A stretch of DNA of 53,620 nucleotides from contig CANRJW010000006.1 of assembly GCA_947631035.1 (NCBI GenBank), positions 1-53,620 on the forward strand, written 5' to 3'. Source of the DNA: an uncultured Bacilli bacterium. GTDB lineage: Bacteria; Bacillota_I; Bacilli_A; RF39; UBA660. This document shows, one piece after another, positions 23,675 through 36,541 of this stretch. The notes beneath the pieces were generated by a model. The model saw only the letters and a program-made list of their open reading frames with translations. It was not told where the DNA came from and made no database searches. Every line of letters begins with the position of its first letter. Position 1 is the stretch's first letter. The position numbers and the translations under genes were made by a program.

Positions 23675-23699
23675 TTCTATTTTTTGTTAAACTTAAAAA
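23675..23699 (+). repeat. 25-bp target-site duplication, left copy (IS copy 1)
   Basis: The 25 bases here (TTCTATTTTTTG...TTAAAAA) are repeated exactly at 24937-24961 on the other side of the IS. Confidence 0.9.
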
Positions 23700-23899
23700 T
23701 GTGCAATTATAATAGAAATGTGACAGTTATTCCAATTTACCATCAAAATTTCAGGAACCGATAATGTGATGATAAGGCAGAGGCTCAGCAGCGAGTAGCA
23801 AAGCTACAATCTGCCTGAGGCACAGAAGCCTATCACATCATCCCTAAAATTTTAATGTTTTCTCGGCATAAACTTTATCAAAGAAGAAATAATTGCACA
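23700..23899. repeat. 200-nt imperfect palindrome in the IS left end
   Basis: The left-end 11-mer TGTGCAATTAT is matched by ATAATTGCACA at 23889-23899. Between them, further arms pair (CATCAAAATTTCAGG with CCTAAAATTTTAATG; GTGATGATAAGGC with GCCTATCAC; AGGCAGA with TCTGCCT) up to a tip GTAGC-AAA-GCTAC near 23796-23808. The stretch could fold as one long hairpin in DNA or RNA. No protein is supported in these 250 bases before the transposase gene. Confidence 0.75.
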
Positions 23900-23953
23900 G
23901 TGTAGGTTTGTCAAACCAATCCAACTCAATTTTTGGAAAGGAATGAGAAATCT

Positions 23954-24886
23954 ATGAGTAAACCAAAAATTACTCAGCAGATGAGATACCGAGAGTCTCT
24001 CATCAAATACGCCAAAAAACATGGCGTATCCAAAGCTTCTCGTGTTTACAACACGAATAGGCAATACATCTATCGTTGGAGGAAACGTTACAACGGAGAT
24101 GTTCGTTCTCTAGCAAATGAGAGTACAAAACCGAAAAGTCATCCTAATCAGCATACGAAAGAAGAATTAAAGTTAATTCAAGATGTCTTTCGTAAAAACC
24201 AGAATACAGGTTTAGTTGTTCTTTGGGTAAAATTACAACAACGTGGATATTCTAGATCTATTTCTAGTTTATATCATCAGTTAAAAAAATTAAATCTAAA
24301 ATATGTTACTCCAAAGAAACATAAAAAGAAAACAACAAAACCGTATATTCAGATGACTTTTCCTGGTGAACGAGTCCAGATAGATGTAAAAACCGTTCCA
24401 ACAAAATGTATCGTTGGCCAGTTCAAATTTTATCAATATACAGCTATAGATGAATTCTCTCGTTATCGTTACTTAAAAATCTATGAAGAGAAATCAACAT
24501 ACACTTCGTATAAATTTTTATTGGAAGTAATAAAAAGATTTCCATTTAAAATTTATACGATAAGAACGGATAACGGAGTGGAATTCACCAAAAGACTGAT
24601 ATCTAATGATCCAAATGATATTACCATGTTTGAACTTGGCCTTAAAAGAAATGGTATCCATCATGACTTGATCAAACCTTATACACCAAAACATAATGGT
24701 AAGGTTGAACGAAGTCATCGAAAGGATAACGAACGGTTTTATAATTGCCATCGCTTTTATTCATTAGAAGATGCCAATCAACAGTTGCAAGTTTATTTAA
24801 GGGAATATAATAATTTCCCTATGCAACCTCTTAATTGGAAATCTCCTAATGAATTGCTTCGTGATTATTTTAATTTATTAAAATAA
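23954..24886 (+). CDS. DDE transposase of IS copy 1
   Basis: A 310-residue single-frame transposase. The N-terminal part has a helix-turn-helix (YAKKHGVSKASRVYN, then YIYRWRKRY), followed by an integrase core with the acidic triad in VQIDVKTVP (first D), IRTDNGVEF (second D) and HNGKVERSHRKDNE (glutamate). This layout fits the IS481/IS3-like group without a frameshift. ATG 23954 lies a little downstream of GGAAAGGAA; a TTG at 23933 would add seven residues. It is identical in protein sequence to the second copy, with only silent changes seen, so both insertions are recent. Confidence 0.92.
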   Translation: MSKPKITQQMRYRESLIKYAKKHGVSKASRVYNTNRQYIYRWRKRYNGDVRSLANESTKPKSHPNQHTKEELKLIQDVFRKNQNTGLVVLWVKLQQRGYSRSISSLYHQLKKLNLKYVTPKKHKKKTTKPYIQMTFPGERVQIDVKTVPTKCIVGQFKFYQYTAIDEFSRYRYLKIYEEKSTYTSYKFLLEVIKRFPFKIYTIRTDNGVEFTKRLISNDPNDITMFELGLKRNGIHHDLIKPYTPKHNGKVERSHRKDNERFYNCHRFYSLEDANQQLQVYLREYNNFPMQPLNWKSPNELLRDYFNLLK

Positions 24887-24936
24887 TCTATCGTTGGTTT
24901 GTCGTGACTCTGTCACTTTTGTTTGACAAACCTACA

Positions 24937-24979: not shown

Positions 24980-26085
24980 ATGAAAGATGAAGAAATTTTA
25001 GTTAAAGAGAGTCGGGGGGGGGGACTAGAGTATTAATATACGATTGGGTAAGATTGATTGCTATGATTTTAGTTGTTATTGGTCATAGCATGTATTTAAA
25101 TATTACTTCAACTTATGGTAGTATAAATTATACATTGCCTTCAAATATAAGTGATGAATATTTTAGTGGATTATTTACTTTTTTCAAGATGTTACCCACC
25201 TGGATTTATCAGTTCCATATGCCACTTTTTTTTGCTCTATCAGGTGCTGTATTAGCCCTTAAACCTATAAAAAATTTTGACAAATTGTGTAAGGGAAAAT
25301 TTAAGAGATTAATAATACCGTATTTTATTTATGGCTGTTTATTTATGATTCCTATTAAGTATATTAGTGGTTTTTATGTAAATTCTAGTATTTTACCTGC
25401 ACTGAAAGGATTTTTAATTGGAATAGAAGGTAGTCATTTATGGTTTTTACCATCTTTATTTTGGTGCACAATTTCTTTTGCAATTATATATCTTTTGTTC
25501 TCTAAAGTAACTGAGAGTAAATATGTATTGTTGATCGTCACCGGAATAATTCAAATTTTATATAATTATTTGCCTTTTGATGTTTTTTTCTTGAAAATGG
25601 GGTTAAGTTATATATTTTGGTTTGCGTCAGGATTTGTGTTTGAGTTAGAAAGAAAATCTTTACACTATAATTTTAAAAAAAATATGATATATTTTATAAT
25701 AACAATTATATTGGAAATATTAAATTTTAAATATAAGTTTTTTAATTCTTTTTTTGAAATTTTTTGTGGATGTGTTTTTGTATATTTATTAGCAGAAATT
25801 TGTTCATTTCTATTTAAAAAGATAGCAAATAATTCTTTTTGGAAATTGATAATACAAAATTTATTTTTTGTATATTTGTTACATGATCCATTAGAATATT
25901 TAGTTTTAAAGATATTTATGTCACATAATTGGTTAACTACTTCTTATGGGTGTTATTTTTACTTATTTTCTAGAACAATTTTAGTTTTTATGGTTTGCCT
26001 AGTTTTAGGTGTGTTAATAGAAAAATTAAAAAAAATAATTGCAAATTTATTAGGCGATAATTCTTTCCAACAATTAGTGCAATGA
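24980..26085 (+). CDS. Acyltransferase-3 family membrane protein, phase-variable, out of frame here
   Basis: ATG 24980 follows GAGGAAG by 7 bases and reads MKDEEILVKESR into a run of ten G (25014-25023), then stops at 25034-25036 after 18 codons. With eleven G (or eight) the same start runs through TRVLIYDWVRLIAMILVVIG into the whole open frame to 26085, giving 368 residues. That junction is the normal N-terminus of acyltransferase-3 proteins (YDWxRxIAxxxVVxGH, with the catalytic histidine), which move acyl groups onto surface sugars with about ten membrane helices. So the gene is intact apart from the tract and is OFF in this sequence. An internal ATG at 25054 lacks a ribosome site and would lose the first motif. 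Confidence 0.85.
25014..25023 (+). repeat. Poly-G tract (G10), coding phase switch 1
   Basis: Ten G residues in the 12th to 15th codons of the acyltransferase gene. Predicted ON lengths are 8 or 11; the 9- and 10-G forms meet early stops. Confidence 0.9.
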
Positions 26086-27790: not shown

Positions 27791-30026
27791 ATGAAAAAAA
27801 ATAATAATAAGGAAAAGTTGGAAATTGTTTTTTTGCTTCTTTTATTATTTATTCTAGCATTAATTGTGGGAATAAATCGTATTAAAAATTCCGACTTTTC
27901 TCCTACAAATGGCGATTTTCAAAATTATAATCCTGTAAATAGACTCCTTAATGGTCAAATTCCGTATAAAGACTTTGCAGTTTATTTGGGAACTGGGCAT
28001 TTATTTTTAATTTCGGTTGCGTTAATGTTTATTGGGAATACATTTACTAAAAGTTTATTTGTAACCAATGTGCTCACTTTTTTATGCTTTGAATTGTTTA
28101 GTTTTGTAATGAGTTTTTTAATTTTGAAAGATAAAAAGAAATCTTTATATTTAACTTTGGTCTTATCATTATTAAATCTTTGTAGGCCTGTTTTATTAAA
28201 AATTATATTAGATCCTCAAATTTTGGCTTCATTAGATGTTGGTATAGCGCCAGGTTTATCTGCTAGGGCAATAAGAATGGCAGTTATTCCTGCATATATA
28301 TTTTTAATGTATATTGGATTAAAATTATTAAAAAAATCAAAAAATACATTTATTCAAAAACATTTATTGTTTTTACAGAAATTATTTATTGCGTCAATAG
28401 CTGGAATTTCGATTTTATGGAGTAATGATGGTGGAATATCTACTTATATAAGTATTTCTTTTGTCTATTTTCTTGGCCTTTTAAAAAAATATAAGACAAA
28501 TATACTTTCGATAATTAAAAATACTTTTTTATATATTTGTTTAAGTTTTATGTCATTTTTAATAGTTATAACGATTATTACATTAGGTCATCCTTTGGCT
28601 TGGATTAAATTTACATTAGGTGTAAGTTCTTATCAAAGTTGGTATTATTTGAATGCGGTAGATAAGCAAAATGTTAATTTAACTCAAATTAATTCTGAGT
28701 TATTAGTGGCAGTTATGATCTTCTTTGCAGTATTTTATATGGTTAAATTTATAAAAGAAAAAAAATCTAAAAAAAATGAGTTATTTTTTGCTTTATTAAG
28801 CACTTTCTATTTGGCAATCATTGTAAGTATGTATTTATATCAAATAGGTTCTGGTGGAATTTATAAAGATTTTTTGGGGTTAGGCTTATTAGTTACTATA
28901 ATGGCTTTAATTTATAAATATATTAAATTGGAAAACGTGAAAATAAACAGTTTAATAAAAGTTGTAATATTTTTATTTGCTTTTAACACAATTGGCTTAA
29001 ATGTTAGAAATGAAATAAAAAGTTTTAAAAATAGAGATGAAAATAAATATGTTGAGGAATTAGGCGGCTATCTTTCAAATGGTGATACGATAAATTATGT
29101 TATTGATAGATTAAAAGATGAAAAAATATTTTCGGTTTATGCATCAGCAATAAATGCTGCTACACATCAATTTCAACCGACAGGTATAGATTATATAATT
29201 CATGCTTTAGGAGATAAACAACGTGAAGAATACATGAATGTTTTTAGAACTGGTGATTTTAAATATGTTGAAGATTTAGATACGAGTTATTCTTTATATA
29301 ATTGGATAAGTTTTGCTAATTGGTTTTTTTATCGAGAAATGTATAAAAATTATAAACCTTGTTTCGGGGGGGGGGTATAATGTGTTCTATGAAAGAAAAT
29401 TAGATAGTGAAAGAGATGAAAATATTATTGATTTAGATGAATTAGAAATAGACGTTAAAAGAATCACAACATATAAATATGTAATTCATGTGAAAAATAA
29501 TAATAAATTTAAAAATGGTATAGTAGATTTAAAAGTATCTTATCAATCCCACTTTTTAAAAACTTTCTTTAATACTTTGGACATAAAGAAGTATGTTTTT
29601 GTAAAAGATATAAATATAGATAATATGTATCCGGGAGGATTTAATAATTTCAACATTCCAGTAACTTCAAATGAGTATTATTTACCAATTAACGTAATAA
29701 ATGGTGAAGGGGAAATTGAAATATATTCTTATCCATATGAAAATACTAAACTTGACATACAGAATGTTGAAATTGTTGGAATGTATACTGATAGATATAG
29801 ATATATACATGGTAACCCGGCTAAATATGATGAGAATAAAATTTATATAGATAATACCACTGAAAATTCGGTTATTATTGAAGGTGTAACAAAAGTTAAA
29901 ATGGACAATCATAGCGCAGTTATAAGTGATGTTGAAAAAAATGATAAATATATTATCTTAAAAAGTAACGATGATTTGTCTTATTTTCAATATCCTAATT
30001 TTTTTGAAATCATAAAAGGAAAATAG
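27791..30026 (+). CDS. GT-C-like membrane protein, phase-variable, split by a poly-G tract
   Basis: The frame from ATG 27791 (AGGGGAC upstream) gives 529 residues and stops at 29378-29380, just after ten G residues (29366-29375). The sequence beyond is open to 30026 in another frame. With nine or twelve G the two parts join to 744 residues, and the product then aligns without a gap to the intact paralogue at 32923: PCFGGGYNVF against PVFTTDYNVF. The membrane part has the loop SPTNGDFQNYNPVNRLLNGQ then IPYKDFAVYLGTGH, resembling the first loop of GT-C transferases; the C-terminal 215 residues are a soluble beta-rich domain. In this sequence the domain is cut off (OFF or truncated form). Confidence 0.85.
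29366..29375 (+). repeat. Poly-G tract (G10), coding phase switch 2
   Basis: Ten G residues at codons 526-528 of the preceding gene. Nine or twelve G restore the long frame. The paralogue has unrelated bases (ACTACAGAT, encoding TTD) at this position. Confidence 0.9.
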
Positions 30027-30048: not shown

Positions 30049-32847
30049 TTGAGCAAAGTTAATTATGAACAAAATTCTTCTTTTGAATTTATTTTACCAT
30101 CTTTTTTTCTTGCTTTGGTTTTAGTTTTCTTTATTTTTATAAATGTTAATTATTTTCCTACATTTGTTTCAGATGGAATTATTGGTAATGCCATCATTCA
30201 TGGTGTTGATGTTGCTAAAAGAATCGGCGCGTTTTATTTATTAATACTGATTGGTTTACCTATATTAATATTGCTTTTAAATCGTTGTTTTTTTAAAATG
30301 TTTAATAAAATTGATAATGTTTTAAAAAAAGAACTAAATCTGTTGTCTACAATTGGTATTATTGTACTATTTTTGATGTTTATCGGTAAATCACAAAATT
30401 TAACTTTAAATTTATACCCTTCTGTTATTGTAATACTGGAAGTCCTATTTATAATTTTTATTGTCTATTTAATTTATTTAAAAAATGCATTTTTAAATTT
30501 AAAAAATATTAACTGGGCATTTTTAGCATCAATACCCTTCGCACATTTAGGAGCGTTATTTATAAGTCGTTTTCAACAAAATTATTGCTTTGTTATCTTT
30601 TTTTTGATTTATGGGGTTAGTTCAATTCTATTGTTTTTTATTTCAAATTATAAAAAGATCAATTACAATGTTTTACAGAAATCTTTCCTATTTTTACTTT
30701 TAGCACCAATTATGGAAAGTTTATATTTAGAGTTATATAATATATTAAATCAATATAATATTGTAATTAATAGAAAAATTTTAATTATATTTTTGATTTA
30801 TATATTTTGCTTAATTTTAACGGTAATGTATTATGTATTAAATCGAAAACGACAAATAAAATTTGAATATCAAAGAATTTATTATCCTATAATTATACTT
30901 TTATTTTCATTATTTGCGTTGCAAGTTCATTTGATTAATGTTGTAGATACGGATTTTTTTGAGACTGCTAATTCTGGGGAAGGCGTGTTTGAATTTTTTA
31001 AATTTGGCAAGATTCCAATATTAGAAACTTTTGATGCCCATATGTTAAAGTATCAAATTTGGGGAATACTATATAGTTTAATAAACCATGACGTTTTTGG
31101 CGGTGTATTTTGTTATGAAGTAGGCTATATTGCTATCGCCTCTATAATAAGTTATTTAATCATATATGTTTTTCTTAGTAAATTTATTTCTCGAGATTTA
31201 TCTTTTTTAACAGTTTTATTTTTACCATTAACTTTTGATTTAGGATTATGGAATTTTGCTTTTGCTTTAATTCCAGTATTATTTTTGTTAAAGGCTGTAG
31301 AAAAGAAAACTACTATTTCTTATGCAATTTTTTGGTTGTCTGTGGTTTTATTATGTTTTTATCAATTGGATATGGGAGCAGCTGTTACTATTTCGGCTGT
31401 AATATTACTAATTTATTTAAATCGAACTGATAAGCAAAAAATTTTGAAAGTTTTTAAACCATTAATATTGTTAATTGTATGCATTTTTGCACTATATCTG
31501 ACTTTATGTTATATAAAGGATATTAATCCAACTTATAGATTATTGGAATTTTTAAAAATATCATTATCAAATGCAAATTGGGCATTGGATAGTATTGGAA
31601 ATACGGAAAAATTGTCTTATACAATTTATTATTTTATATTTCCAATGTTTATGATTTTATCTTTACTCTTTTTATTTCATAAAAATAAAAAAGATTGGAA
31701 TATCAAAAATATAGCATTAATATTTTTAAATTTGATTTATATTTTTAATTTTCAACGTGGTTTGGTCCGTCATTCTTTGATTGAGAATGATTATTATCGT
31801 GGCGCTAGTTTTTTTCTTATATATTTTGTTTTATTTTTATATGAATATAGATTTAGGAGTAATAAAAAAATAAAATTTCTTTTAGTGTATGCAACTGTTA
31901 TAGTGTTCTCTTCATTTTTATCAAACGGAGATGCGCTTCATTATAACAATTTAATAAATAATTCAGTAGTAAATTATACTAGTTTTGCTTTTCATAATGA
32001 AAAAGCAAAGGAGAAGGTTAAAAGATTTGTATTATCATCTGAAATGAATGCAGAAATAAAAGATTTGAATGCTTTGTTAAATATTTTACTAGAGAAAAAT
32101 GAAACTTACTTGGATTTTAGCAATCAAACATTATTATATGCTTTATTTAATAGGGAAAAACCTGTATATGTAAATCAATCTCCGGGTTTAATTAATGGTG
32201 AATTCTTGCAACAATTATTTTTAAATGAAATTGATCATTTTTCTAAGGAAGTTCCAGTTGTAATTAAGGCGTATAATAAAAAATTATCTAACTCTATGGA
32301 TGGCATACCAAATGATTACCGCTATTTTTTGATTAGTGAACGACTTTTTCAAGACTATCAACCATTGGCATTAACAAATGATTATGAAATATGGGTAAAA
32401 AATGATAGATTTGATGATATGAAACATAAGATTGAATACATGAAAAATGTTACGTTAATCGAAAAAGAAAATTATGAAGAAAAGCAAACAACTATAGATT
32501 TATTTTACCTACCATATATTATAGGAACAACGAATAATGAATATCATTCTCTTAAATCTTCTTATAATAATGAATTAACATTTGTTAATGAATTAATTGA
32601 TAAAAGAAAAGGCAATTATGTGGAAATCGCAATAGAGAGCAAATTTGACACAGAAGCAACTCTTTATGCAATTTTTGACAATAAATTAGTCAAAAGTTAT
32701 AATTTTTTTGTAAAAGCAGGAGTACATAAATATTCGATAAGAATTAGTACTTTGTATGAATGGTATGAAAACATTAATAAATTAATAGTTGATACAAATG
32801 ATCTGGAAAATACACGGGTTAATGCTGTATCTATTATGCAAAATTAG
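30049..32847 (+). CDS. Large polytopic membrane protein, probable GT-C glycosyltransferase
   Basis: A 932-residue protein. It starts at TTG 30049, seven bases after a strong AAGGAGTGA; I see no ATG with a ribosome site nearby. Residues 1-285 hold about nine hydrophobic helices. A second membrane unit follows after the loop DTDFFETANSGEGVFEFFKF and GKIPILETFDAHML at about 300-330, a GT-C-like acidic loop (compare GQIPYKDFAVYLG in the neighbour). The last 300 residues are soluble. It is the third gene of the operon starting at 26181, 22 bases after the end of the split gene. Likely role: adding or moving a sugar on a polyprenyl-linked glycan outside the cell. Confidence 0.65.
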   Translation: MSKVNYEQNSSFEFILPSFFLALVLVFFIFINVNYFPTFVSDGIIGNAIIHGVDVAKRIGAFYLLILIGLPILILLLNRCFFKMFNKIDNVLKKELNLLSTIGIIVLFLMFIGKSQNLTLNLYPSVIVILEVLFIIFIVYLIYLKNAFLNLKNINWAFLASIPFAHLGALFISRFQQNYCFVIFFLIYGVSSILLFFISNYKKINYNVLQKSFLFLLLAPIMESLYLELYNILNQYNIVINRKILIIFLIYIFCLILTVMYYVLNRKRQIKFEYQRIYYPIIILLFSLFALQVHLINVVDTDFFETANSGEGVFEFFKFGKIPILETFDAHMLKYQIWGILYSLINHDVFGGVFCYEVGYIAIASIISYLIIYVFLSKFISRDLSFLTVLFLPLTFDLGLWNFAFALIPVLFLLKAVEKKTTISYAIFWLSVVLLCFYQLDMGAAVTISAVILLIYLNRTDKQKILKVFKPLILLIVCIFALYLTLCYIKDINPTYRLLEFLKISLSNANWALDSIGNTEKLSYTIYYFIFPMFMILSLLFLFHKNKKDWNIKNIALIFLNLIYIFNFQRGLVRHSLIENDYYRGASFFLIYFVLFLYEYRFRSNKKIKFLLVYATVIVFSSFLSNGDALHYNNLINNSVVNYTSFAFHNEKAKEKVKRFVLSSEMNAEIKDLNALLNILLEKNETYLDFSNQTLLYALFNREKPVYVNQSPGLINGEFLQQLFLNEIDHFSKEVPVVIKAYNKKLSNSMDGIPNDYRYFLISERLFQDYQPLALTNDYEIWVKNDRFDDMKHKIEYMKNVTLIEKENYEEKQTTIDLFYLPYIIGTTNNEYHSLKSSYNNELTFVNELIDKRKGNYVEIAIESKFDTEATLYAIFDNKLVKSYNFFVKAGVHKYSIRISTLYEWYENINKLIVDTNDLENTRVNAVSIMQN

Positions 32848-32876
32848 TAATTCAATTATTTGATAAATTATTGGAA

Positions 32877-32905
32877 TTGACGGGGGGGGGGGATAATGTT
32901 ATAAT
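32877..32905 (+). promoter_or_regulatory. Promoter with poly-G spacer, transcriptional phase switch 3
   Basis: -35 TTGACG (32877-32882) and extended -10 TGT-TATAAT (hexamer 32900-32905) are separated by exactly 17 bp. Eleven G residues (32882-32892) make the last base of the -35 and ten bases of the spacer. Any slippage would move the spacing away from the optimum. As sequenced, the promoter is at its ON length. Confidence 0.85.
32882..32892 (+). repeat. Poly-G tract (G11) in a promoter spacer
   Basis: Eleven consecutive G residues between two AT-rich flanks, 30 bases ahead of the start codon at 32923. Confidence 0.95.
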
Positions 32906-32922
32906 TTTTATGGTGTAGTTTT

Positions 32923-35205
32923 ATGAATTTCAATTTATCAAATAAGTTAACTCAAATAAAAAGTAAAAAAATATTATTTCCAATTGCAATGGTGTTAATT
33001 TTAGTTGTTCTTGCTATAATTGTAGGCATTGACAGAATGACATTATCGGATTTTGTTCCTATCAATGGTGATTTTCAAAATTATAATCCAGTGCGTAGAT
33101 TTCTAAATGGTCAAATTCCTTTTAAAGATTTTGGAGTTTATTTAGGAACTGGTCATTTACTATTATTATCTTTTTTTCAAATCATTTTTGGATTTATTTT
33201 TGGAAATAATTTCACTACTAGTTTAATGGTTAGTAATATGGTTACGTTTCTTGCTTTTGAGATAACTGTTTTTTTTCTAAGTTTTTTGATAACGAAAAGT
33301 AAAAAGGGCTCTTTTTATATTACGTTAACTTTTGCTATTATCAATATCACTAGACCAGAGTTTTTGGTAAACAACATTGATGATGTAATTTTAAGTGCTT
33401 TGGATTTTGGATTAAAATCCGGAAATTCTGCAAGATTAATTAGGATTATTGTTGCACCTTTATCAGCAATATTATTGTATTACGTAATCAATAAAATAAA
33501 TACAGTTTTAACTACAACTTCAAAAAAGATATTTCTTTCAAAAATTGTATTTGCTATTATTGGAGGAATATGTATTTTATGGAGCAATGATGGAGGGGTT
33601 GCTACTTATTTGGCTATATCATTTGTATATTTTCTAATTTTAATAAAAGAACATAAAAAAAATGTACTTCTTATCTTGAGAGATGTATTGATGTATATTG
33701 TGATAAGTATAATTTCTTTTTTGGCAGTTTTAGTTATTATTACTCGTGGTAATGTTTTGTCATGGTTTAATTTTACGACACAAATAGGTTCTTATCAAAA
33801 ATGGTATTATTTTGAAGCGCCTGCTAAAATGAATATTTCACTATTAAATGTTGATTTAAATGTTTATAATATAATATTAATTATCGTTTCGAGTTATTAT
33901 GTTTATTTACTTTTTAAATCCAAGGATAAAAAATCAATTTTTAATTATGCATTAATACTTATTATTGTTTTATCGTCTATAATTTCTTGCTATTTTTATC
34001 AACTTTTTGCTGGAAGAATATCAAGAGATATGCTAATATTGGTTTTCTTAATTGTAATATTTAGTTACATTTATAAAATTTTTTACAGTATTATAAATAA
34101 TACTCATAACCGAACTTTTATTTTTAATGTTGGAAAAGGGTTTGCAATTATTTGCGCAAGTGCTGTAATAATTAATAGATGTGGACTTATTATTAATAAC
34201 ATAAAAAATAGAAATTTAAATAATGAAATTATTTATATAAAAGAATTGGACGGATATTTTTCAGAATATGGTGCTAGTATTAAAAATGCGATTGATGAAA
34301 TTGAGGGTAAAAAAATTTTTTCAACCTATGCATCTGCATTAGAAGCGGCTACAAATCAATTTCAACCTACCGGTATTGATTATATTATACATTGTATGGG
34401 CGATAAGCAAAGACAAGAATATTTAAAAATTTTTAATCAAGGCGATTTTGATTATGTTACAACAGTGGATAAACAAAATGTATATTCTAGTAAATGGATA
34501 ATTAATGCAAATTGGTTTTTTTATCGTGAATTATATAAAAATTATAAGCCTGTGTTTACTACAGATTATAATGTTTTTTGGGAAAAAAGCGACGAAGTAC
34601 CTATTGCAGATCAAAATGTTGAGGTTAAACAAAGTAAGGCCAATGATCATCAATATAATATAACTGTATCAACGGATGATAAAACTTTTTCTGGGATGGT
34701 AGATTTAAAATTGTCATATGATAGTACCTTTAAAAGAAGTTTTTTTAAAAGTTTGGATTTAAATAAATATGTTTATGTTAAAGATATAACGGGTAAAACG
34801 ATTTTAGAAGATCAAGATGAAATTATTAATTTTAATATTCCTAATAATTCAACTGAATATTATATACCGGTAACTGTTATTAACGGAGTTGGTAAGATAC
34901 AAATTGTAAGTTATCCGTTAAATAATACGAAGTTAAACATTGATAATGTAGAGGTAGTAGACTCATATGGTGGATTATTTAAATATGCTGTATTAAGTAA
35001 AAATAAAAAAATTAGTAATAATACTTTATATGTTGACAATACATTAGAAAATCAAGTTATTTTAAATGGTGTAAAATTCATAAAAATCGGAGATATTGAA
35101 CAAGAAATTATAGGCTATAATGAAACTGATGATTATATAGAGTTAAAAGTTGAAAAAAATGCATCCAAGTTTAAGTATCCTAATTATTTCGAAGTAATAA
35201 AATAG
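32923..35205 (+). CDS. GT-C-like membrane protein, intact paralogue under a poly-G promoter
   Basis: A 760-residue protein closely related along its whole length to the split gene at 27791. The first loop reads VPINGDFQNYNPVRRFLNGQ then IPFKDFGVYLGTGH; shared later blocks include ILWSNDGG, FQPTGIDYIIH and NWFFYRELYKNYKP. About eleven membrane helices fill residues 15-420; a soluble beta-rich C-terminal domain spans about 540-760. The coding region has no poly-G tract; instead its promoter carries one. ATG 32923 has GGTG seven bases upstream. The chemistry (sugar transfer from a polyprenyl phosphate) is inferred from the GT-C-like loop only. Confidence 0.75.
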   Translation: MNFNLSNKLTQIKSKKILFPIAMVLILVVLAIIVGIDRMTLSDFVPINGDFQNYNPVRRFLNGQIPFKDFGVYLGTGHLLLLSFFQIIFGFIFGNNFTTSLMVSNMVTFLAFEITVFFLSFLITKSKKGSFYITLTFAIINITRPEFLVNNIDDVILSALDFGLKSGNSARLIRIIVAPLSAILLYYVINKINTVLTTTSKKIFLSKIVFAIIGGICILWSNDGGVATYLAISFVYFLILIKEHKKNVLLILRDVLMYIVISIISFLAVLVIITRGNVLSWFNFTTQIGSYQKWYYFEAPAKMNISLLNVDLNVYNIILIIVSSYYVYLLFKSKDKKSIFNYALILIIVLSSIISCYFYQLFAGRISRDMLILVFLIVIFSYIYKIFYSIINNTHNRTFIFNVGKGFAIICASAVIINRCGLIINNIKNRNLNNEIIYIKELDGYFSEYGASIKNAIDEIEGKKIFSTYASALEAATNQFQPTGIDYIIHCMGDKQRQEYLKIFNQGDFDYVTTVDKQNVYSSKWIINANWFFYRELYKNYKPVFTTDYNVFWEKSDEVPIADQNVEVKQSKANDHQYNITVSTDDKTFSGMVDLKLSYDSTFKRSFFKSLDLNKYVYVKDITGKTILEDQDEIINFNIPNNSTEYYIPVTVINGVGKIQIVSYPLNNTKLNIDNVEVVDSYGGLFKYAVLSKNKKISNNTLYVDNTLENQVILNGVKFIKIGDIEQEIIGYNETDDYIELKVEKNASKFKYPNYFEVIK

Positions 35206-35279: not shown

Positions 35280-36516
35280 TGTAGGTTTGTCAAACAAAAG
35301 TGACAGAGTCACGACAAACCAACGATAGATTATTTTAATAAATTAAAATAATCACGAAGCAATTCATTAGGAGATTTCCAATTAAGAGGTTGCATAGGGA
35401 AATTATTATATTCCCTTAAATAAACTTGCAACTGTTGATTGGCATCTTCTAATGAATAAAAGCGATGGCAATTATAAAACCGTTCATTATCCTTTCGATG
35501 ACTTCGTTCAACCTTACCATTATGTTTTGGTGTATAAGGTTTGATCAAGTCATGATGGATACCATTTCTTTTAAGGCCAAGTTCAAACATGGTAATATCA
35601 TTTGGATCATTAGATATCAGTCTTTTGGTGAATTCCACTCCGTTATCCGTTCTTATCGTATAAATTTTAAATGGAAATCTTTTTATTACTTCCAATAAAA
35701 ATTTATACGAAGTGTATGTTGATTTCTCTTCATAGATTTTTAAGTAACGATAACGAGAGAATTCATCTATAGCTGTATATTGATAAAATTTGAACTGGCC
35801 AACGATACATTTTGTTGGAACGGTTTTTACATCTATCTGGACTCGTTCACCAGGAAAAGTCATCTGAATATACGGTTTTGTTGTTTTCTTTTTATGTTTC
35901 TTTGGAGTAACATATTTTAGATTTAATTTTTTTAACTGATGATATAAACTAGAAATAGATCTAGAATATCCACGTTGTTGTAATTTTACCCAAAGAACAA
36001 CTAAACCTGTATTCTGGTTTTTACGAAAGACATCTTGAATTAACTTTAATTCTTCTTTCGTATGCTGATTAGGATGACTTTTCGGTTTTGTACTCTCATT
36101 TGCTAGAGAACGAACATCTCCGTTGTAACGTTTCCTCCAACGATAGATGTATTGCCTATTCGTGTTGTAAACACGAGAAGCTTTGGATACGCCATGTTTT
36201 TTGGCGTATTTGATGAGAGACTCTCGGTATCTCATCTGCTGAGTAATTTTTGGTTTACTCATAGATTTCTCATTCCTTTCCAAAAATTGAGTTGGATTGG
36301 TTTGACAAACCTACACTGTGCAATTATTTCTTCTTTGATAAAGTTTATGCCGAGAAAACATTAAAATTTTAGGGATGATGTGATAGGCTTCTGTGCCTCA
36401 GGCAGATTGTAGCTTTGCTACTCGCTGCTGAGCCTCTGCCTTATTATCACATTATCGGTCCCTGAAATTTTGATGGTAAATTGGAATAACTGTCACATTT
36501 CTATTATAATTGCACA
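35280..36516 (-). mobile_element. Insertion sequence copy 2 (1,237 bp, inverted relative to copy 1)
   Basis: Same length and ends as copy 1: on the plus strand it opens with TGTAGGTTTGTCAAAC and closes with ATAATTGCACA. It has its own, different 25-bp target duplication, so it arrived by a separate transposition. A few substitutions against copy 1 are visible in the palindromic left end (for example AGGGACCG for AGGAACCG) and one silent change in the transposase gene. It separates the intact GT-C paralogue from the RgpF-like gene and leaves the latter's promoter untouched. The palindrome lies at 36317-36516. Confidence 0.9.
35330..36262 (-). CDS. DDE transposase of IS copy 2
   Basis: 310 residues, identical in protein sequence to the transposase of copy 1, with the same helix-turn-helix and D-D-E core. 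The start is the ATG ending at 36262, matching the choice for copy 1. It faces away from the polysaccharide locus. Since both copies are whole, either can supply transposase in trans. Confidence 0.92.
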   Translation of the reverse strand: MSKPKITQQMRYRESLIKYAKKHGVSKASRVYNTNRQYIYRWRKRYNGDVRSLANESTKPKSHPNQHTKEELKLIQDVFRKNQNTGLVVLWVKLQQRGYSRSISSLYHQLKKLNLKYVTPKKHKKKTTKPYIQMTFPGERVQIDVKTVPTKCIVGQFKFYQYTAIDEFSRYRYLKIYEEKSTYTSYKFLLEVIKRFPFKIYTIRTDNGVEFTKRLISNDPNDITMFELGLKRNGIHHDLIKPYTPKHNGKVERSHRKDNERFYNCHRFYSLEDANQQLQVYLREYNNFPMQPLNWKSPNELLRDYFNLLK

Positions 36517-36541
36517 TTATATAAAAATATAAAATTGTTGT
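36517..36541 (+). repeat. 25-bp target-site duplication, right copy (IS copy 2)
   Basis: Exact repeat of 35255-35279; the promoter of the next gene begins five bases further on. Confidence 0.9.

Follow-up and report, generated by a model that had tools for sequence, protein, structure and literature searches.

A G11 tract in a promoter spacer as a putative transcriptional contingency locus in a surface-polysaccharide block of an uncultured gut Bacilli bacterium

The G11 site and its genetic neighborhood

The window, by which we mean the whole 53,620-nt stretch of DNA analyzed here, carries around the site of interest a rhamnose-type (rhamnan-type) surface-polysaccharide cluster, whose members include RgpF/WbsX, a Cps2T-like rhamnosyltransferase, a TagH-like exporter ATPase and permease, and family-2 glycosyltransferases (Table 1). 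The gene on which we focus encodes a 760-residue polytopic membrane protein and follows a co-directional gene for another membrane protein. A pair of inverted, identical insertion sequences brackets a 10.3-kb block in which all three long G-tracts of the window are found; this block could be mobile as a composite element, or invertible by recombination.

Table 1 Features of the G11 site and of the bracketed block, in window coordinates
Feature	Coordinates	Strand	Basis and remarks
-35 element TTGACG	32877..32882	+	Direct reading; 5/6; final G doubles as tract base 1
G11 tract, putative slipping element	32882..32892	+	Direct reading
Promoter spacer, 17 bp	32883..32899	+	Spacing 15/16/17/18/19 for G9/G10/G11/G12/G13 by arithmetic
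Extended -10, TGT + TATAAT (32900-32905)	32897..32905	+	Direct reading and promoter scan
GGTG, weak Shine-Dalgarno-like site	32912..32915	+	Direct reading; function inferred
Downstream gene, 760 aa, ~11 hydrophobic helices and soluble C-terminal part	32923..35205	+	Polytopic membrane protein; GT-C-like by resemblance only
Upstream co-directional gene, 932-aa membrane protein	30049..32847	+	75 nt ahead of ATG 32923
Possible tract-independent promoter, TTGACA-17-TATAAT	32675..32703	+	12/12; within 3' end of upstream gene
Paralog of 32923 gene, split at assembled tract length	27791..30026	+	48% and 42% identity over two parts
G10 tract, translational switch	29366..29375	+	Inside 27791-30026; 744-aa frame intact at G9, broken at assembled G10
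Acyltransferase-3 gene (PF01757) with 25014 tract	24980..26085	+	Profile match and frame analysis
G10 tract	25014..25023	+	34 nt after ATG 24980; 368-aa frame open at G11, broken at assembled G10
Insertion sequence copy 1	23698..24936	+	rve transposase 23933-24886; 1239 nt
Insertion sequence copy 2	35280..36518	-	Inverted, 100% identical to copy 1; 1239 nt

On direct reading, positions 32870-32925 run ATTGGAATTGAC-G11-ATAATGT-TATAAT-TTTTATGGTGTAGTTTT-ATG: TTGAC occupies 32877-32881, the G11 comes next, and ATAATGT leads on to the TATAAT, which lies 17 nt ahead of the ATG at 32923. The description in the initial annotation—TTGACG, 11 G residues, an extended -10 TATAAT, and a 17-bp spacing—is thus exact, and a promoter scan scores the site at 11/12. 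Recognizable -35 and -10 elements flank the tract, and near-optimal spacing is reached at G11, the one consensus length that the assembly shows.

Such a run is not what base composition would predict. The G+C content of the window is 28%, and its G/C runs range in length from 1 to 6 and then jump to 10, 10, and 11, with none of 7–9; the three long ones, G10 at 25014, G10 at 29366, and G11 at 32882, all lie on the plus strand. A first-order model covering both strands expects 0.0013 runs of at least 11 Gs in the window, which bears out the earlier assertion that a G11 is not a chance product in DNA this AT-rich. Gain or loss of a single G restores or breaks a reading frame at the 25014 and 29366 tracts, and does not at the 32882 tract; judged by this frame behavior, the block combines two frame switches with one promoter tract.

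The start of the 32923 gene is plausible, given that an ortholog in a related genome (G013; 47% identical) carries the similar ATGGTGGTATTATG ahead of its own start at the position of the window's ATGGTGTAGTTTTATG. The predicted leader measures only ~11 nt and its Shine-Dalgarno sequence is weak, both of which count against the tract promoter. As to the product, the initial annotation called it GT-C-like, a label that survives as a resemblance only: no relative was found in Pfam, NCBIfam, or the PDB, and an AlphaFold model made without an alignment reached a pLDDT of 37, too low to be usable.

The G013 ortholog has no tract; it starts 9 nt behind its upstream gene. Nor was a tract seen just upstream of a more distant relative in genome G097, and conservation of the tract at this gene is therefore not seen. 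Because the tract-free ortholog sits so close behind its neighbor, the tract promoter is probably a gain of the window's lineage, or else a loss in that of G013.

Poly-G tracts in the host genome and its relatives

The 1.43-Mb host genome contains 60 G-tracts of at least 8 (50 G10, 5 G11, 4 G9, and 1 G8), where ~4 would be expected at this length and 0.16 at 10 or more. Forty-eight are copies of a single 5' sequence fronting a paralogous surface-protein family, some copies being cut by contig ends, and most of the frames in this family, though closed at the G10 of the assembly, are open with G9. Many C-termini in the same family (L062-L105) consist of a variable stretch plus SFRIVLAP and appear FGE/C-type-lectin-like by eye. 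A diversity-generating retroelement was considered as the source of this variation and found no support, since a reverse transcriptase was not found.

Among the 12 remaining tracts, three lie in promoter spacers, at 17, 18, and 18 bp. The two besides that at 32882, TTGACTTAGGTGCC-G10-TATAAT and TTGACTTAGCGTTC-G10-TATAAT, are the 18-bp examples, and both precede paralogous genes for membrane-anchored surface proteins; the one relative of these genes that was tested, in genome G015, gave List-Bact repeat and Big_2 domain matches. Elsewhere in the host genome, G11/G10 tracts at position 3990 of L061 and position 3958 of L102, both on the minus strand, fall in short leader ORFs. With G10, the stop of these ORFs overlaps the start codon of phage tail-fiber-like genes (as TAATG), a possible translational-coupling switch in DNA of a prophage or phage. 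A further G10 tract lies ahead of a collagen-like gene with GPTGATGP repeats (L079, minus strand, 1259), and another directly behind a tRNA-like sequence and ahead of another gene (L080, minus strand, 4026).

Loss of mismatch repair was rejected as the cause of the tracts, MutL being present in 22/22 genomes of the genus, the host included. MutS (PF05192), present in 273 of 291 family genomes, was not found in the host genome; at 92.7% completeness of that genome, its loss is unproven. Genomes negative for MutS are in any case no richer in tract carriers (11/18 vs 163/291).

Recurrence of the design was assessed with the pattern TTGA-N(2-16)-G7-N(0-10)-TATAAT, the reversed pattern serving as control. 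In the genus, the pattern occurs in 16 of 22 genomes and its reverse in none; in the family, it occurs in 64 of 291 genomes at 333 sites, with up to 43 per genome, against a single reversed match. A sample of the wider group yielded the pattern in 33/392 genomes, including other families of the class, together with a handful of reversed matches, so isolated occurrences outside the family deserve less weight. Although the pattern permitted a far wider range, the spacer measures 16–19 bp in 41 of the 47 genus sites.

The tract also stands ahead of orthologous genes in different species: five species have it before an ABC ATPase gene, three before genes of a secreted-protein group, three before the gene for a 312-aa protein, and two before that for a DUF3419 protein. 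For instance, the DUF3419 pair has tracts of G10 and G9, and yet both spacers are 17 bp, as the flank differs by one base and compensates for the G count. Within single genomes, copies that share identical flanks form 13 sets whose members differ in their number of Gs, which is what a tract more mutable than its surroundings should produce. The genes downstream are mostly of surface or envelope character, with pilin-like N-methylation signals, camelysin-like, lectin-like, and Ig-like/List-Bact repeat products, GtrA, and UbiA. It is the counts against the reversed pattern in genus and family, the placement at orthologous genes across species, and the unequal lengths between identical-flank copies that lend support, independently of the 32882 site, to the promoter-spacer role which the initial annotation had proposed for the tract.

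Contig ends are enriched at these sites: 12 of 44 genus promoter sites lie within 160 bp of one, vs 1.1 expected from the lengths of the same contigs (~11-fold, P ~1e-10). This fits length mixtures that break assembly graphs, but poly-G sequencing drop-out, a problem noted previously (PMC9187656), or repeated paralogs would also explain it. In public genome contigs, gut Bacilli and Clostridia are the commonest sources among the matches listed, accompanied by a few isolates; among 124 of the listed sites, 106 have an ORF no more than 120 nt away, and 70 of those 106 a Shine-Dalgarno-like sequence.

A probable mutable promoter spacer and competing readings

The site is probably a poly-G promoter-spacer contingency locus of the porA/tp0126 type. 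We think it probable that the 32923-35205 gene has a sigma-70/sigma-A-type promoter in which the G11 forms a mutable spacer, and that slippage of the tract shifts transcription stepwise and reversibly. Slipped-strand mispairing at replication would add or remove Gs, moving the -35/-10 distance from its near-optimal value to 15, 16, 18, or 19 bp; each such change would lower transcription in a stepwise, reversible fashion, with G11 as the expected strongest state. The tract would act as one among the ~60 poly-G contingency tracts of the genome, and in the same 10-kb surface-polysaccharide block the acyltransferase and the membrane-protein paralog would be tuned via their reading frames by G10 tracts. 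A cell population with differing surface glycans is the likely outcome of such an arrangement.

The clearest challenge to this reading comes from the operon itself, in which the 32923 gene could be expressed mainly by upstream read-through or from the 32675-32703 promoter, leaving the tract to add to a constant level with little phenotypic effect. The 12/12 promoter lies 219 nt upstream of the ATG, the upstream gene is close, and a scan of the gap between the two genes found no terminator-like site; the gene may accordingly be expressed at any tract length, and the G013 ortholog lies directly behind its upstream neighbor and lacks a separate promoter. Nonetheless, a simple base-composition estimate predicts ~0.2 such matches per 53.6 kb, so this one may be chance, and it lies inside coding sequence, whereas the tract promoter has an extended -10 and occupies the operon's only sizeable gap. 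We regard this account as unlikely, but the same second promoter and absent terminator make a strict OFF state doubtful. The effect of the tract is probably graded, possibly buffered by the 32675-32703 promoter and by operon read-through; what stands of the "graded ON/OFF control" initially proposed is thus the grading, as in porA, while strict ON/OFF switching is doubtful given that promoter and likely read-through.

A tract without selected switching at the 32923 gene, whether a neutral remnant or a product of chance beside promoter-like sequence, is in our view improbable. It would accommodate the tract-free relatives in G013 and G097 and a -35 element that matches at only 5/6 positions, its last one supplied by a tract base, but it sits poorly with a genome that holds 60 tracts, three of them in promoter spacers of 17, 18, and 18 bp, and with the hundreds of same-design sites in relatives where the reversed pattern has almost none. 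We give hardly any credence to a translational switch of the kind found at 25014 and 29366. Most tracts of the host genome do fall within reading frames, but the upstream gene stops at 32847, ahead of the tract, an in-frame TAA at 32902-32904 precludes any reading-frame fusion across it and rules out a frame switch for the 32923 gene, and no ORF spans the tract to reach that gene at any length tested. No more plausible is a sequencing or assembly artifact: some short-read chemistry is known to yield false poly-G and contigs do break near tracts, yet the lengths are narrow (8–11), the tract recurs at an identical position in 48 paralogs where it restores or breaks one frame, and the design is also present outside MAGs, for example in the complete chromosome of Treponema ruminis and in a strain of Streptococcus.

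Precedents, scale, and implications

Read as a mutable promoter spacer, the 32882 tract joins a mechanism of transcriptional phase variation that is known at a small number of loci in Gram-negative pathogens and in spirochaetes. The Campylobacter phasome offers a different precedent, in which the surface genes of a genome bear numerous poly-G tracts, mostly frame switches; the family of the window organism has, in addition, a large promoter-spacer class.

A close parallel is Neisseria meningitidis porA, where, relative to 11G, the surface protein is 2.2-fold lower at 10G and 13-fold lower at 9G (PMC3639595). Shared with the window site are the poly-G in the spacer, 11G as the high state (at the window site, the predicted one), a surface component downstream, and a graded effect of single-G losses, which at the window site would follow from the altered spacing. 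The differences are that the organisms are unrelated, that the window gene encodes a glycan-cluster membrane protein, that the window tract touches the -35 element, and that relatives of the window organism carry many such promoters per genome. Treponema pallidum tp0126 likewise has a poly-G spacer, with an optimum at a 17-nt -35/-10 distance (PMC7864442), but it encodes a spirochaete outer-membrane protein, and that paper mentions no polysaccharide block with neighboring frame switches. G-tract slippage also governs surface structures of one gut commensal and one mollicute, by way of the pilus G-tracts of Bifidobacterium breve and gsmA of Mycoplasma agalactiae (PMC9187656); these tracts lie inside reading frames, like those at 25014 and 29366 in the window, and not in promoter spacers.

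More broadly, and with somewhat less assurance than for the single site, we lean toward the view that this family of uncultured gut Bacilli has in poly-G promoter spacers one main means of diversifying its surface: up to 43 per genome, repeatedly built with different flanks, retained at the same genes in different species, and joined, as in the host genome, by dozens of frame switches and an IS-bracketed surface-glycan block. In the open-access literature searched, we found no paper that treats promoter switching by poly-G in uncultured gut Bacilli, RF39-like or other. The earlier remark that few cases are described in Bacilli is sound as to descriptions; as a sequence feature, the arrangement occurs commonly in uncultured Bacilli and Clostridia of the gut. 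The mechanism is already known, then, and it is its scale in uncultured gut Bacilli that appears undescribed.

If confirmed, this would amount to a common, lineage-wide surface-diversification system of mostly never-cultured gut commensals, with a bearing on phage and immune evasion and on strain heterogeneity in metagenomes, where consensus MAG sequences would be predicted to hide ON/OFF mixtures. Natural promoters with G7-G16 spacers, which number in the hundreds, constitute in addition a ready data set for the effects of spacer length on transcription. Among isolates, records of Streptococcus sp. (L222), Treponema ruminis (L202), Streptobacillus notomytis (L235), Hydrogenoanaerobacterium (L242), and Helicobacter sp. 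(L248) each carry a poly-G promoter spacer, and several of these sites precede genes for secreted or surface proteins.
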